Positions 35,440 through 41,225 of a stretch of DNA of 64,000 bases are shown piece by piece. Numbering within the stretch: the stretch's first letter is position 1; each line of letters starts with the position of its first letter. Location: NCBI RefSeq assembly GCF_000971295.1, contig NZ_LANJ01000016.1, forward strand, positions 186,001-250,000. Reading direction: 5' to 3'. Source of the stretch: Devosia epidermidihirudinis. GTDB lineage: Bacteria; Pseudomonadota; Alphaproteobacteria; Rhizobiales; Devosiaceae. The notes beneath the pieces are model-generated. The model was not told the origin of the DNA. It was given only the letters and a program-made list of their open reading frames with translations, and ran no database searches. Position numbers and translations under genes: made by a program.

Positions 35440-35512
35440 GGTCGGGATAAGACCGGGGGAGCGGCGCGATGTCCAGTGGGAGCCGCGGCGCTCTCTCACA
35501 CCCACCGGCGCT

Positions 35513-35535
35513 GTCCTCGGACTTGATCCGAGGAC
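35513..35535. repeat. REP-like hairpin, first of two
   Basis: A perfect 9-bp stem (GTCCTCGGA at 35513-35521 with TCCGAGGAC at 35527-35535) around the loop CTTGA. It is part of the hairpin family with loops of the form CNYGW. Confidence 0.75.
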
Positions 35536-35564
35536 CACTACCCGCTTGTGCCGCGTGCTGAGTG

Positions 35565-35587
35565 GCCCTCGGGTCGAGCCCGAGGGC
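35565..35587. repeat. REP-like hairpin, second of two
   Basis: A perfect 9-bp stem (GCCCTCGGG at 35565-35573 with CCCGAGGGC at 35579-35587) around TCGAG, which reads CTCGA on the other strand. It lies 29 bases from the hairpin at 35513-35535, a pair arrangement also seen at 59526-59596. Confidence 0.75.
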
Positions 35588-35662
35588 AGCATCTGTGGGG
35601 AGAAGGGATACAGTTCTGAGCATCAAGTGGGTGGAGAGACACCCCCACCCTGCTCGATGGAC

Positions 35663-35713
35663 GGACTTAGCAAGCTAAGTCCTGTCTCGCTTCCCTCCCC
35701 ACAAGGGGGAGGG
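35663..35713. repeat. two further palindromes in the pheT / nucleotidyltransferase gap
   Basis: GGACTTAG-CAAG-CTAAGTCC (35663-35682) is a perfect palindrome. CCCTCCCC (35693-35700) pairs with GGGGAGGG (35706-35713) around ACAAG. The second lies 20 bases past the pheT stop on the minus strand and may end its transcription. With the two hairpins at 35513-35587 this makes four palindromes in a 294-base gap that holds no gene. Confidence 0.6.
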
Positions 35714-35733
35714 TCGTCGACTGATGGATCGAA

Positions 35734-38157
35734 CTACGTGCGGAGCACGCCGCCGGTGGATTTGGTGACGGCGGCGACGATGGCGGACGAGACTTTTTCG
35801 ATGTCTTCGTCGGTCAGCGTCTTGTCGGTTGGCTGCAAGGTCACTTCGATGGCGACGGATTTCTTGCCTTCCCCGACATGGCTGCCTTCGAACACGTCGA
35901 ACACATTGACGTCGGTGATCAGCGCCTTATCGGCACCGCGCGCGGCGCGCAGGATCACGGCGGCGGTGACCGCCTTGTCGACCACGAAAGCGAAGTCACG
36001 GCTGAGCGGCATCAGGGCCGAGAGGTCCAGCGCGGGCTTGGTCTTGGTCGCCTTCTTGCGGGGCTCGGGAAGCGCATCGAGGTCGATCTCGAAGGCGCTG
36101 ACGGGGCCATGGATGTCGAGCTCGGCGGCCCAGGCGGGATGCAGTTCACCGAACCAGCCCAGCGTGACCTTGGGGCCGAGTGCAATGCGGCCGCCGCGAC
36201 CCGGATGGCTCCAGGCGGCGGGCTCGGGCAGAACCTGCACCTTGTCGATATCAACGCCCAGCGCGTCGAGCACGGCAGCAAGGTCGGCCTTGGCGTCGAA
36301 CACGCCAACGGCCTCGGCCTTGCCGGTCCAGTGGCGGCCTGCGCCATCGAGCTTTGCCGTGCCGGTGCGGATGCCAGTGGCATAGGTGTGCTGGCCATCT
36401 GGCGTATCGGACAGGAACACCTGACCAACTTCGAACAGACCCAGATCGGACGTGCCGCGATTGGCGTTGCGGCGCGCAGCCGCAAGCAGACCCGGCAGCA
36501 GCGATGGCCGCATGTCGGTCATGTCGGAGGCAATGGCATTGGCCAGCTGCAGGCTTTCCTGCCCACCGCCGAAACGGGTGGCTTCATCATGGGAAATGAA
36601 CGACCAAGTGACTGCCTCATCGAGACCGCGCGACGCCAGCGCCCGGCGCGCGATCCGGCGGCGGTTCTGGATCGTGGTCAGCATGCGTGGCGCCACGTGG
36701 TTGAGGCGCGGCAGCGGCTCGACGGGGACATTGTCCACGCCCACCATGCGCATCACTTCTTCCACCAGGTCGGCCTTCTGCGTCACGTCGGGGCGCCAGC
36801 TTGGCACCTTGACCGTCAGCACGTCGCCCTTGCCCGAAATCTCAAAGCCGAGGCGCGTGAGAATGGCGGTAACGATCATCGGCTCGACGGAAAGACCGGT
36901 CAGACGCTTGACCTCGGAGAGCGGGAATTCGACCACGGTATTGGGGAAGACGTCTTCGCCCGAGAACACCGGCTCCATCGGCTCGCCGCCGCAGAGTTCC
37001 AGCACCAGACGCGTCGCCAGCTCAAGGCCGGGCACGGTCAGCGCGGGATCGACATTGCGCTCGAGGCGATAGCGCGCGTCAGAAACGATGCCGGTCTTGC
37101 GGCCGGTGCGAGCGACCAGTTCTGGATCCCAGCTGGCGCATTCCATGAAGACGTTCACAGTCTCGTCGGTCGAGCCCGAGCGGATGCCGCCCATAATGCC
37201 ACCAAGGCAGAGCGGACCCTGATCGTCGGCAATGACCGTCATGGTCTCGTCGAGCGGATAGATCTTGTTGTCGAGCGCATCGAGCGTTTCGCCAGCGCGG
37301 GCATTGCGCAGCACGGGCTGGCCGACGATCTTGTCGGCGTCATAAGCGTGCAACGGACGGCCCCAGCCCAGCGACACCCAATTGGTGATGTCGACAATGG
37401 CGTTGATGGGACGCAGACCCACGGCGCGCAGACGCTGCTGCAGCCATTCGGGCGATGGACCGTTCTTGACGCCCTTGATCAGGCGGCCACCGAACTTGCG
37501 CGCGGTGTTGGGCTCGTCTGCGCCGAAAAGCTGTGGCAGTGCTGCAATCGGGCTCGGGCCCTTGGATGGGATCGGCGACATGTCGGTGGTCTTGAGCGTG
37601 CCAAGGCCATAGGCGGCCAGATCGCGCGCCACGCCATAAACGCCGGTCGCGTCACCGCGATTGGGGGTGATCGAGATGTCGAAGGTCACGCCATTAATGC
37701 CGACGAAATCGACATAGGGCACGCCGATCGGCGCATCCTCGGGCAGCTCGATAATGCCGTCGTGGTCGGTGCTCAGCTCCAGCTCGGCGGCCGAGCACAG
37801 CATGCCGTTCGACACCTGGCCACGGATATTGCCTTTGCCGATGGTCATGTCCTTGCCCGGAATATAGGTGCCGGGCGAGGCGAACACTGTCTTGAGGCCG
37901 GTGCGCGCATTGGGGGCGCCGCACACGACATCGATCAATTCGCCGGTGCCCGCATCAACCTTGCAGACGCGCAGCTTGTCGGCATTGGGGTGCTGTTCGG
38001 CCGAAACGATATGGGCGGTCACGAATGCCTTGAGCGCCGCGCCCTGCGATTCAACGCCTTCGAGCTCCAGCCCGACCAGGGTCAGCGTCTTGCCGATGTC
38101 GTCGACCGAGGCATCGGTGTCCAAATGATCCTGGAGCCAATCGAGAGTGAATTTCAT
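35734..38157 (-). CDS. pheT: phenylalanine-tRNA ligase subunit beta
   Basis: An 807-residue large subunit of the alpha2beta2 phenylalanyl-tRNA synthetase, which charges tRNA-Phe. Domains in order: an EMAP/OB-fold tRNA-binding domain (about 40-150, HIVSAEQHPNADKLRVCKVD), the B3/B4 editing domain that clears Tyr-tRNA-Phe (about 210-400), B5, a degenerate catalytic-like core, and a C-terminal anticodon-binding FDX domain (about 710-807). Length is typical. AAAGG lies eight bases before the ATG. It is separated from pheS by the ASCH-exonuclease gene, with only 11 bases between that gene and pheT. Confidence 0.96.
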   Translation of the reverse strand: MKFTLDWLQDHLDTDASVDDIGKTLTLVGLELEGVESQGAALKAFVTAHIVSAEQHPNADKLRVCKVDAGTGELIDVVCGAPNARTGLKTVFASPGTYIPGKDMTIGKGNIRGQVSNGMLCSAAELELSTDHDGIIELPEDAPIGVPYVDFVGINGVTFDISITPNRGDATGVYGVARDLAAYGLGTLKTTDMSPIPSKGPSPIAALPQLFGADEPNTARKFGGRLIKGVKNGPSPEWLQQRLRAVGLRPINAIVDITNWVSLGWGRPLHAYDADKIVGQPVLRNARAGETLDALDNKIYPLDETMTVIADDQGPLCLGGIMGGIRSGSTDETVNVFMECASWDPELVARTGRKTGIVSDARYRLERNVDPALTVPGLELATRLVLELCGGEPMEPVFSGEDVFPNTVVEFPLSEVKRLTGLSVEPMIVTAILTRLGFEISGKGDVLTVKVPSWRPDVTQKADLVEEVMRMVGVDNVPVEPLPRLNHVAPRMLTTIQNRRRIARRALASRGLDEAVTWSFISHDEATRFGGGQESLQLANAIASDMTDMRPSLLPGLLAAARRNANRGTSDLGLFEVGQVFLSDTPDGQHTYATGIRTGTAKLDGAGRHWTGKAEAVGVFDAKADLAAVLDALGVDIDKVQVLPEPAAWSHPGRGGRIALGPKVTLGWFGELHPAWAAELDIHGPVSAFEIDLDALPEPRKKATKTKPALDLSALMPLSRDFAFVVDKAVTAAVILRAARGADKALITDVNVFDVFEGSHVGEGKKSVAIEVTLQPTDKTLTDEDIEKVSSAIVAAVTKSTGGVLRT

Positions 38158-38168
38158 GGTTTTGGCCT

Positions 38169-39212
38169 TTAACGGAAGTCGCTGGCGGAGCCGGTGATGG
38201 CGGGCAACGCACGGGAGAGTTTGAACAGTTCGACAAGCACATTGGCAAAGCCGCGCGCATCGTCGATGGCTTTATGGGTGTGGGCGATATGCCCGTAGAA
38301 TTCGGCCGGCAGCTTGCTCATGCCCCAATCGAGATAGGGTGCGCCGCGCAGGGTTCCGGCCATGGTGTAGAGGCAGACGCCGCCGCCTCGGAAAATCTGG
38401 CGCTGCTTGAACGGACCGCTCAGCACGCGGGTGCCAGCGAATTCATCCAGATAGTGATCCATCCACAGCCCATCAAAGATCATCGGCGCGGCGACGAACA
38501 CTTTTGGGCCGGGCAGGGCTTCCACCCAATCGGCAAAGCGCGGCATCACCACCGATGGCGCTTCGGCATTGGCGGTGGTTGCCGCCCATGCCTCGGGCTG
38601 GGTTTCCCACCAGGCCATGGTCTGCTCATTGGTGGTGCGATCAGCGCGCTGGGTCAATTGCGCCTCGAACTCGCCATGGCGCGTGCCATCGGCTTCGATG
38701 GCCACCGATGCAAAGCTCAGCATGGAATTGTGCAGCGGCGTTGGCCCGTCGCTTTCGATATCGGTGACGATAAAGATCGGCGAAGCGACCTGATTGTAGA
38801 CCGCGCGTCCAGCCGGCAGCACTTCGACCAGCCGGAACCGCTCGCAGGCGAGTTCCATGTCCGGCGAGAAGCCACCATTGCGGGCAAAATAGGCCTCGTG
38901 CTCGGCCCGCCATTTGGCATAGGGGCCTTCGCCTTCCCGGTCGCTGAATTCAGGCGTGACAGCGTCGAAGCGCACGATCTCGACCGACAGCGTTTCGATA
39001 ACGGCAGCAGGCTCGCCCGCCCCGTTCAGCACCACATCGCGCCGACCGGCCACAGGCAGCGGCTCCTTGCCCGGACCAAAATCGCGCACGGCGCCGCAGG
39101 TCGCGGTCTTTTCACCAGTGAGCACCAGCGCCAGCAAAGCGTCAGCCAGCTCGGGGGAATCCCCGAAGCTGAACTGGTTGGCATTGGCATAGTGGGCGGG
39201 GAGTGCAGCCAT
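38169..39212 (-). CDS. fusion of an ASCH domain with a DEDDh 3'-5' exonuclease
   Basis: A 347-residue two-domain protein that I cannot match to a named gene. Residues about 11-133 form an ASCH domain: FSFGDSPELADALLALVLTG, then EKTATCG with Lys35 and Thr38, and Glu73 in AVIETLSVEI. Lys-x-x-Thr plus a later Glu is the active-site pattern of the E. coli ASCH protein YqfB, an N4-acetylcytidine amidohydrolase. After a linker of about 12 residues, 146-330 form a DnaQ-like exonuclease: Asp151 and Glu153 (FIVTDIESDGPTP), Asp247 (MIFDGLWM) and His313/Asp318 (HKAIDDA). All key residues of both domains are present. It begins six bases after pheS and ends 11 bases before pheT. A role in turnover of modified RNA is inference. 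Confidence 0.88.
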   Translation of the reverse strand: MAALPAHYANANQFSFGDSPELADALLALVLTGEKTATCGAVRDFGPGKEPLPVAGRRDVVLNGAGEPAAVIETLSVEIVRFDAVTPEFSDREGEGPYAKWRAEHEAYFARNGGFSPDMELACERFRLVEVLPAGRAVYNQVASPIFIVTDIESDGPTPLHNSMLSFASVAIEADGTRHGEFEAQLTQRADRTTNEQTMAWWETQPEAWAATTANAEAPSVVMPRFADWVEALPGPKVFVAAPMIFDGLWMDHYLDEFAGTRVLSGPFKQRQIFRGGGVCLYTMAGTLRGAPYLDWGMSKLPAEFYGHIAHTHKAIDDARGFANVLVELFKLSRALPAITGSASDFR

Positions 39213-39218
39213 GGTGGA

Positions 39219-40349
39219 TTAGCTGCTCAGCCCGCCAAACAGGGTCGGCAGATCGAGCGGGCGGAAGCCGTAATGGTCGAGCCAGCGCTGGTCACCATCA
39301 AAGAAGGCGCGCAGGTCGGGCATGCCGTATTTCAGCATGGCGATGCGATCGATACCCATTCCCCAGGCAAAGCCCTGATAGACATCGGGATCGAGCCCCG
39401 CGCTGCGGATCACATTGGGGTGGACCATGCCGCAGCCCAGGATTTCCAGCCAGTCATTGCCTTCGCCGATCTTGACCTCATTGCCCGACCGATCGCACTG
39501 CACGTCGACTTCCATCGATGGCTCGGTGAAGGGGAAGAAGCTGGGGCGGAAGCGCAGGGTGACGTTGGGCACTTCGAAATAGGCCTTGAGGAATTCCTCA
39601 AGCACCCAGCGGAGTTGTCCAATGTGACTGGATTTATCGATGACGAGACCTTCCACCTGATGGAACATCGGGGTGTGGGTCTGATCGCTGTCATTGCGAT
39701 AGGTGCGGCCGGGAATGACCACGCGGATCGGTGGCTCCATGGCCGGGGTCATGTAGCTGGCGGCAGGCTTTTCATTGGTCTGCTGCATGACGCGGACCTG
39801 CACCGGCGAGGTGTGGGTGCGCAGCACCTTTTTCACGCCATCCGCACCGGGCTTCATGAAGAACGTGTCGTGCATCTCGCGGGCCGGGTGGCCTTCGGGG
39901 AAATTCAGCGCGGTGAAGTTGTAATAGTCGGTCTCGATGTCGGGGCCTTCGGCAATCGAGAACCCCATATCCGAGAAGATCGCCGTGATCTCGTCAATGG
40001 TCTGGCTGATCGGGTGAATGCGGCCGCGCGCGGTGGGGGCAGGCTGCAGCGGCAGGGTGATGTCGACGGTTTCAGCGGCAAGGCGGGCATTGAGAGCGGC
40101 GGACTTCAGCGTCGCGCTCTTGGCCTCGATCAGGCCAGCGATTTCGACCTTGAGGCCGTTAATAGCGGGACCAGCCGACTTGCGGTCTTCAGCGGCCATG
40201 GAGCCCAGCGAGGCGAGCAGGGCCGAAACACTGCCCTTCTTGCCAAGGGCTGCAACACGCACCGTATCGAGCGCGGCTTCATCGCCAGCAGCAGAAATTG
40301 CGGCCGAGAGCTCGGCGCGGAGGGTGGCGATCTGGTTCTCGAGGGACAT
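39219..40349 (-). CDS. pheS: phenylalanine-tRNA ligase subunit alpha
   Basis: A 376-residue catalytic subunit. An N-terminal coiled coil (about 1-85) binds tRNA. The class II core shows motif 2 in [20 protein letters not shown], with HQVEGLVID, and motif 3 in [14 protein letters not shown]. The Phe pocket region [16 protein letters not shown] is intact. It follows rplT after a 250-base gap that contains a terminator and a composite repeat, so it probably has its own promoter. Downstream genes in the unit are the ASCH-exonuclease fusion and pheT. Confidence 0.97.
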
Positions 40350-40372
40350 GCGCGGGTTCTCGTTTTTCAGTA

Positions 40373-40459
40373 GCCCTCATCCTGAGCTTGTCGAAGGGCG
40401 AGGGCGTGGCACGATCTCACGTACCCGACCTCGTGGTTCGACAGGCTCACCATGAGGTC
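40373..40459. repeat. composite inverted repeat, copy A
   Basis: Two 33-base arms (40373-40405 and 40427-40459) are separated by 21 bases. The left arm carries CTCATCCTGAGCTTGTCGAA; the right arm, read on the other strand, carries CTCATGGTGAGCCTGTCGAA. The arms are imperfect inverted copies of each other and each is itself partly palindromic. The same element occurs at 62301-62393, so this is a dispersed repeat. It lies just upstream of pheS. Confidence 0.85.
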
Positions 40460-40523
40460 TCATGGGTGTCGGCGTGGTTGATCTCCTGGTTCACAGGGGA
40501 TCCAAAAACTCTGTGGGCTATAG

Positions 40524-40572
40524 ACCAAAACAAAACGCCCCACGCCAGCCCTTTCGGGATAGCGCAAGGCGT
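40524..40572 (-). terminator. probable terminator after rplT
   Basis: On the minus strand an imperfect hairpin (40535-40572, closed by ACGCC/GGCGT-type arms around CCC-GAAA-GGG) is followed by TTTTGTTTTGG. It lies 28 bases beyond the rplT stop codon. Confidence 0.55.
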
Positions 40573-40599
40573 CATTTTTAGCCTCAGCGATGCTGAAGA

Positions 40600-41004
40600 T
40601 TAGGCAGCAGTAACGCGAGCGTGGGTCGTAGCGTCGATCGCTTCGAGATACGCAAGTGCAGCCTTGGCCTTTTCGACCAGCACGCCGAACGCTTCTGGCT
40701 GGGTGATCGCGAGATCGCTCAGCACCTTGCGGTCAACGGCAACCTCAGCCTTGCTGAGGCCGTCGATAAATCGGCCATAGGTCAGTCCGTAATCACGCAC
40801 TGCTGCGTTGATACGCTGGATCCACAGAGCGCGGAAATTGCGCTTCTTGACGCGACGATCGCGGTACGCGTACTGGCCGGCCTTTTCGACGGCCTGCTTG
40901 GCGATACGGATCGTAGACTTACGGCGGCCATAATAGCCCTCCGCAGCCTTCAAAACCTTCTTATGACGGGCGTGATTGGTAACGCCTCTTTTAACGCGTG
41001 ACAT
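40600..41004 (-). CDS. rplT: 50S ribosomal protein L20
   Basis: A 134-residue ribosomal protein that binds 23S rRNA and is needed early in large-subunit assembly. The basic N-terminus ([18 protein letters not shown]), the [19 protein letters not shown] helix and [20 protein letters not shown] are characteristic. The C-terminus is slightly extended compared with the 118-residue E. coli protein, as usual in alphaproteobacteria. AAGGGAAG precedes the ATG. It follows rpmI after 20 bases. Confidence 0.97.
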
Positions 41005-41024
41005 GTGTCAGCTTCCCTTCAGCG

Positions 41025-41225
41025 TTAGCGGTTGTACGGCATGTACCACTTCACCAGACCCTCGTCGCCCTTGGACAGGATCTTGGTGCCGCGGTTAGTA
41101 CGGATGTACTTGGCGTTGTGGTTGATCAAGCGGTGACGCTTGCCTGCGACGCCTGCCTTAACGCGACCGGTCGCTGTGAAGCTGAAGCGCTTTTTGGCGC
41201 CAGACTTCGTCTTCATCTTGGGCAT
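41025..41225 (-). CDS. rpmI: 50S ribosomal protein L35
   Basis: A 66-residue, strongly basic ribosomal protein with the standard start [19 protein letters not shown] and KAGKRHRL-type core (here [12 protein letters not shown]). AAAGGACC precedes the ATG. It forms a two-gene unit with rplT. The translation initiation factor gene infC, which lies just upstream of rpmI in many bacteria, is not here; an MFS transporter gene occupies the next position. Confidence 0.97.

Follow-up and report, generated by a model that had tools for sequence, protein, structure and literature searches.

The window analysed here, a stretch of 64,000 nucleotides from Devosia epidermidihirudinis, carries on its minus strand a gene (38169..39212) whose open frame, from the ATG at 39212 to the stop at 38169, encodes a protein of 347 aa joining an ASCH domain to a DEDDh exonuclease. 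This fusion gene is real, and its position between pheS and pheT was confirmed. The gene for the alpha subunit of phenylalanyl-tRNA synthetase, pheS (39219..40349, minus strand; Pfam PF01409 and PF02912), is 6 bases upstream, and pheT, for the beta subunit (35734..38157, minus strand; PF03483, PF17759, PF03147, PF01588 and PF03484), is 11 bases downstream. Both the uninterrupted two-domain frame, its strand left unnamed, and these two spacings had been described in an earlier note made from the sequence alone, and they are borne out by the coordinates and by the Pfam matches on both neighbours.

Upstream of pheS, a 134-aa frame (40600-41004) is presumably ribosomal protein L20. A consensus scan of the interval 35500-41200 returned a single terminator-like site, within the fusion gene (3.8 were expected by chance), and no promoter-like site. 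Thus, pheS, the fusion gene and pheT are likely carried on a single transcript.

The two domains are connected by a linker of residues 133-144 (38781..38816, minus strand), in agreement with the roughly 12 residues proposed before. The motif LP[AS]GR-x-x-Y is found there in 51/51 fused loci, a number in which the window itself is counted twice. The fusion as a sequencing error, with two separate genes in the homologues, was ruled out: of 40 genomes sampled from the genus, 23 have the fused frame, and it recurs in 27 of the 36 loci of named records, the two sets overlapping in part. Around the linker, 45 of the 50 fused rows have in-frame start-like codons, GTG131 being present in 40 of the 50, window included, and this leaves room for a separately made exonuclease. 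The 50 fused rows, which also serve for the residue, selection and DEDDh counts, pool two collections, and some species may count twice.

Both halves are under purifying selection. Among the 95 closest pairs in which both halves were measurable, the exonuclease half had a median dN/dS of 0.094 and the ASCH half one of 0.114; pheT was left out of this comparison because, paired without gaps, it showed a spurious median identity (0.525). The median pairwise identity among fused rows was 0.76 for the ASCH half (1129 pairs), 0.87 for the exonuclease half (1225 pairs) and 0.91 for pheS, and the exonuclease half evolves little faster than pheS.

The exonuclease half and its relation to Cap18

The second part of the protein (residues 145-341; 38190..38780, minus strand) is a DEDDh 3'-5' exonuclease domain. 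The earlier note had recognised a DnaQ-like exonuclease with five catalytic residues, Asp151, Glu153, Asp247, His313 and Asp318, and all of them are intact in the window protein, as they are in 107 of 109 homologue rows. On the minus strand, motif I, Asp151-x-Glu153 (38754..38762), has each residue in 108/109 rows, motif II, Asp247 (38472..38474), is kept in 109/109, and motif III, from His313 to Asp318 (38259..38276), has each residue in 107/109. The two exceptions at motif III, L066 and L076, are gapped there, and their exonuclease match is split between frames and broken in the DNA. The complete DEDDh set is present in 50/50 fused rows, 6/6 fusions of reverse order, 11/11 split pairs and 40/42 lone copies.

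The best exonuclease match in Pfam, PF16473 (Rv2179c-like) at residues 149-257, scores 25.4 bits, below the curated cut-off of 27, and PF00929 (RNase_T) at residues 148-325 scores 18.5 bits, below its cut-off of 24. When a profile of 26 exonuclease homologues was compared with solved structures, the first match was Cap18 (7t2s; E 2.3e-23), followed by PolC, a DnaQ and RNase T, the last one weak (E 1.7e-4). The AlphaFold model, whose mean pLDDT is 69.7 for the whole protein and below 50 in the poorly modelled residues 243-315, has the DnaQ-like exonuclease fold, with Z values of 9.7-10.0 over 145-155 residues against Cap18 (9.9), RNase T (9.7) and DinG. RNase T and RNase AS (Rv2179c; Z 9.3) have the DEDDh fold in common with the Devosia protein but carry no ASCH domain. 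The window genome holds one further RNase_T profile match besides the fusion gene.

Cap18, a CBASS-associated 3'-5' exonuclease, is thus the closest solved exonuclease by sequence, and the DEDDh site is common to both proteins. According to PMC9122588, the operon of Cap18 is a CBASS operon that also encodes a cGAS-like enzyme, and a review (PMC10419184) reports that Cap18 degrades ssDNA or ssRNA. The Devosia protein could then be an accessory nuclease directed against phages, as Cap18 would be in CBASS, and its matches to a PADLOC "Effector" exonuclease (E 9.8e-8), to a CRISPR-associated DEDDh exonuclease (E 0.0011) and to a PHROG phage exonuclease family (E 8.2e-9) go in the same direction. 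However, the immediate neighbours of the fusion gene are pheS and pheT, in place of a Cap18-type operon, and an ASCH domain is attached to the exonuclease. The slow evolution of this half, close to that of pheS, also argues against a defence role, as does the report, also in PMC9122588, that a catalytic Cap18 mutant left phage protection unchanged in its own system. On this evidence, a defence role is highly improbable.

The ASCH half and the ac4C question

The first part of the protein (residues 1-132; 38817..39212, minus strand) is an ASCH domain, as proposed in the earlier note, and it is of the EF3133 type, which we take to be the one also named COG4405 and YhfF. PF04266 (ASCH) matches residues 25-130 with 62 bits, against a curated cut-off of 21.2. 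The predicted structure has the PUA-like ASCH fold: pLDDT is 86-93 per ten-residue block over residues 11-130, except for 71 at residues 41-50, and the structural alignment gave Z 16.0 to EF3133 (1t62), 15.9 to the ASCH protein of L. crispatus (3s9x) and 13.5 to E. coli YqfB (9kyh). A profile of 22 ASCH homologues matched, above noise among solved structures, EF3133 (E 1.6e-36) and 3s9x (E 3.4e-33), and it matched neither YqfB nor ZmASCH; the search with the single protein returned two ASCH chains only. NCBIfam assigned no family (12.8 bits, cut-off 389).

EF3133 and 3s9x are therefore of the same type by sequence, and they share with the Devosia ASCH half the EGEGD, Trp and His positions. Unlike the Devosia protein, they are single-domain, with no exonuclease in the chain, and their molecule names state no function; the literature searched gave none for ASCH domains of this type. 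The ssRNA ribonuclease ZmASCH (5guq, 5y6b) has the ASCH fold in common (Z 9.2) but no sequence-profile match to the Devosia domain.

Among 100 homologue rows, Lys35 (39108..39110, minus strand) is present in all, and position 38 is Thr in 91 and Ser in 8. Glu93, Gly94, Glu95, Trp101 and His105 are each found in 100/100 rows and Arg111 in 99/100. Glu73 is kept in 92/100 rows; in the fusions of reverse order its place is occupied by Glu in 3/6 and by Gln or Lys in the other 3. In a check on the Lys/Thr/Glu trio, the conservation thus held for Lys35 and for Thr38, with Ser as its substitute, and failed for Glu73 in half of the reverse fusions.

The trio had been read as the pattern of YqfB, the E. 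coli ac4C amidohydrolase (9kyf, 9kyh). the text of PMC6972931 reports that Lys21, Thr24 and Arg26 are each essential to YqfB, whose activity is abolished when any one of them is missing (R26A is inactive) and falls 100- to 1000-fold without Glu74; PMC9599836 writes the ASCH motif as G-x-K-x-x-[ETS]-x-R. The Devosia domain resembles YqfB in fold and in the active-site Lys and Thr, since Lys35 and Thr38 take the places of Lys21 and Thr24, and in the window Glu73 takes that of Glu74. However, the pattern is incomplete: at the place of the essential Arg26 lies Gly40 (39093..39095, minus strand), and Arg is found there in 0/100 rows; on this ground the half was not assigned to the YqfB-type amidohydrolases. 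By spacing from Glu73, the counterpart of YqfB His70 would fall at residues 69 and 70, which are both Ala.

Building on that pattern and on the operon with phenylalanyl-tRNA synthetase, the earlier note had suggested one protein that trims RNA and deacetylates ac4C in tRNA quality control. The YqfB fold and the three residues Lys35, Thr38 and Glu73 speak for this proposal; the missing Arg26 equivalent speaks against it. Also against it is a search for TmcA (PF13718), the bacterial enzyme that makes ac4C, which was found in 0/101 genomes of the order. The set contained the window's own genome, and 89 of its members reach a completeness of 90% or more with little contamination; the controls, E. 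coli and two archaea, did give matches. Thus, ac4C deacetylation was not borne out, and the proposal as a whole is very unlikely. The other suggestion of the earlier note, an ASCH half that does no more than bind RNA, is compatible with these results.

A related alternative is a two-step enzyme, in which the exonuclease would degrade RNA to monomers and the ASCH half would then hydrolyse an acyl or similar group on the released nucleotide, other than TmcA-made ac4C. It would be consistent with the overlay of the ASCH half on YqfB (102 residues, rmsd 1.7), with the conservation of Lys35, of Thr or Ser38 (99/100) and of the Glu93 to His105 positions, and with a GNAT acetyltransferase-ASCH fusion found elsewhere (L196). 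Furthermore, PMC9599836 reports that YqfB analogues use free nucleosides as substrates and showed no binding to nucleic acids. Against it stand the YqfB Arg, missing in 100/100 rows, and the variable Glu73, and we regard this enzyme as unlikely.

Distribution and history of the two parts

The family sample comprised 101 genomes, 40 of them of the window's genus, and the interval between pheS and pheT was opened in 90 of the 99 genomes with pheS. Counted by hand, these 90 slots held the fusion in 23 cases, the exonuclease only in 21, two separate genes in 11, a reverse fusion in 6, ASCH only in 6 and neither gene in 23, the last number including one slot (L103) that stops before pheT at the contig end. 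Of the 40 genomes of the genus, 23 carry the fusion and 8 only the exonuclease in their slot (one of these copies being broken); a further 1 has only ASCH there, and the remaining 8 have neither. Among the named records with close relatives, 33/36 are titled Devosia. A search for the same domain order in relatives thus succeeded within the genus and, in the class and phylum samples, plasmids and phages described below, found no case outside the family. One slot (L081:1691-2880) contains two tandem exonuclease copies and an ASCH gene.

The reverse fusion has the exonuclease first and ASCH second, in a single frame and in the same pheS-pheT slot, and it was found in each of the 6 genomes sampled from g6, a different genus of the same family (L082, L091, L097, L102, L107 and L111). 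In L082, Pfam places ASCH at 219-329 (83.5 bits) and the Rv2179c-like domain at 14-123 (23.9 bits, below the cut-off of 27). That g6 has both domains in one frame at this slot, but with their order turned round, suggests that they are paired in function. This opposite-order fusion, unforeseen in the earlier note, is the best sign that ASCH and exonuclease act together, and it strengthens the functional pairing of the halves suggested there.

The slot also takes unrelated genes. Ten other frames in it were scanned, and five belong to a family: BrnT and BrnA (both in L008), DUF2442 (L072), DUF2442-BrnA (L086) and YetF (L090). In L008, a single genome of the genus, the BrnT toxin and BrnA antitoxin frames (916-1498) separate pheS from the fused gene, and in L086 a DUF2442 fused to a BrnA antitoxin lies between pheS and the exonuclease gene (976-1596). 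A role linked to phenylalanyl-tRNA cannot, therefore, be read from position. The tRNA quality-control role is weakly founded, because the slot takes BrnTA and YetF and either half is often absent; the link proposed earlier, based on operon position, is unsupported.

These findings could also mean that the gap is simply a permissive slot for accessory genes, two of which were fused by loss of a stop codon, without any cooperation. The five unrelated families would agree with such an accident, and so would the 23/90 slots with neither gene and the occurrence of each part alone. Conversely, the two genes co-occur in the 90 slots more than expected (Fisher p 9e-5, the kinship of the genomes being ignored), the fused frame is under purifying selection, and the fusions are in opposite orders. 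Outside the family, moreover, 36 genomes of the order sample have an ASCH match, and in 19 of them it adjoins pheST. An accident is, in our judgement, quite unlikely.

In these genomes of the order sample, the ASCH gene occupies the pheS-pheT slot in 11 cases, a place just after pheT in 8 and other places in 16 (11 of these placed from the ~3 kb read on each side and 5 from contig and coordinate), so that 35/36 genomes were placed. In family f41 (L137, L138, L141-L144, L185, L186) the ASCH gene follows pheT and does not precede it. The arrangement pheS-ASCH-pheT was also met in a genome from a different order of the class (L192:2725-3090). In a frame of 329 aa (L196:1846-2835), ASCH (67.8 bits) is fused to a GNAT acetyltransferase (PF13302, 80.3 bits).

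Each phylogenetic tree was built on 66/83 rows, with the best copy per locus: the Devosia fused rows were thinned to 6/23, L031-L067 were omitted as likely repeats, and the second exonuclease of L081 was left out. The structure-based alignment included 31/36 named-record loci and the window. In the exonuclease tree, the 47 pheST-linked rows form one clade (99/89), with the 19 unlinked rows outside it; within the clade, f24 and f14 fall outside f1, and the g6 exonucleases branch beside the remainder of the family. In the ASCH tree, the linked rows are not one clade: the f32 rows group with unlinked rows (99/93), the g6 rows group with the ASCH of family f41 with weak support (82/87), and the remaining backbone is without resolution. 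Judging from these sequences, two separate joinings, in opposite orders, would be the simplest account. In the exonuclease tree, 5/8 exonuclease-only rows of the genus fall within the fused clade; in these rows the ASCH half was probably lost again, and it thus seems dispensable.

On a wider scale, one half or the other was matched in 37/387 genomes of the class sample and in 70/397 of the phylum sample, and, the window's own genome aside, none was matched by both halves; for most of these genomes the assessment used the part of the query that the match spans, and the DNA was searched around 17 class-level and 11 phylum- or class-level matches. Two seemingly long matches, G974 and G879, have in their DNA an exonuclease and no ASCH match. 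Among 183 matching plasmid records and 11 phages, none reaches 80% coverage of the query at a single site. No paper on the fusion, or on ASCH with pheST, was present among the matches listed by title and abstract start, in a search covering few subscription journals.

A possible mode of action

The best supported reading, ranked above the two-step enzyme, the accident, the ac4C proposal and the defence role, is that of a 3'-5' exonuclease to which an ASCH module, dispensable and acting on RNA or a modified base, is attached; as a detailed claim, we hold it to be evenly balanced. In this reading, the protein would be a metal-dependent DEDDh exonuclease of the Cap18/RNase T neighbourhood, carrying a PUA-like ASCH module. 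As predicted from its family, it would take nucleotides singly off the 3' end of a single-stranded nucleic acid, which we suppose is most likely RNA, although the evidence is equally compatible with DNA. The ASCH module would bind the substrate, or its modified base, and so steer or help the exonuclease. The two genes would have come together in the pheS-pheT gap and been joined in two lineages, with ASCH once in front and once behind.

A more specific version can be proposed. The exonuclease may expose or release a modified nucleotide that the ASCH domain, itself of uncharacterised type, may recognise or strip of its modification, the modification being something other than TmcA-made ac4C; the pair would have arisen by fusion in this slot on two occasions or more, with the domain order reversed between them. 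We consider this version speculative and somewhat unlikely.

If true, it would represent a new nucleic-acid clean-up step, co-produced with phenylalanyl-tRNA synthetase. The fusions to one exonuclease family in opposite orders would tie the EF3133-type ASCH to 3'-end trimming, and they would show that a translation operon is able to carry a nuclease as a long-standing passenger.
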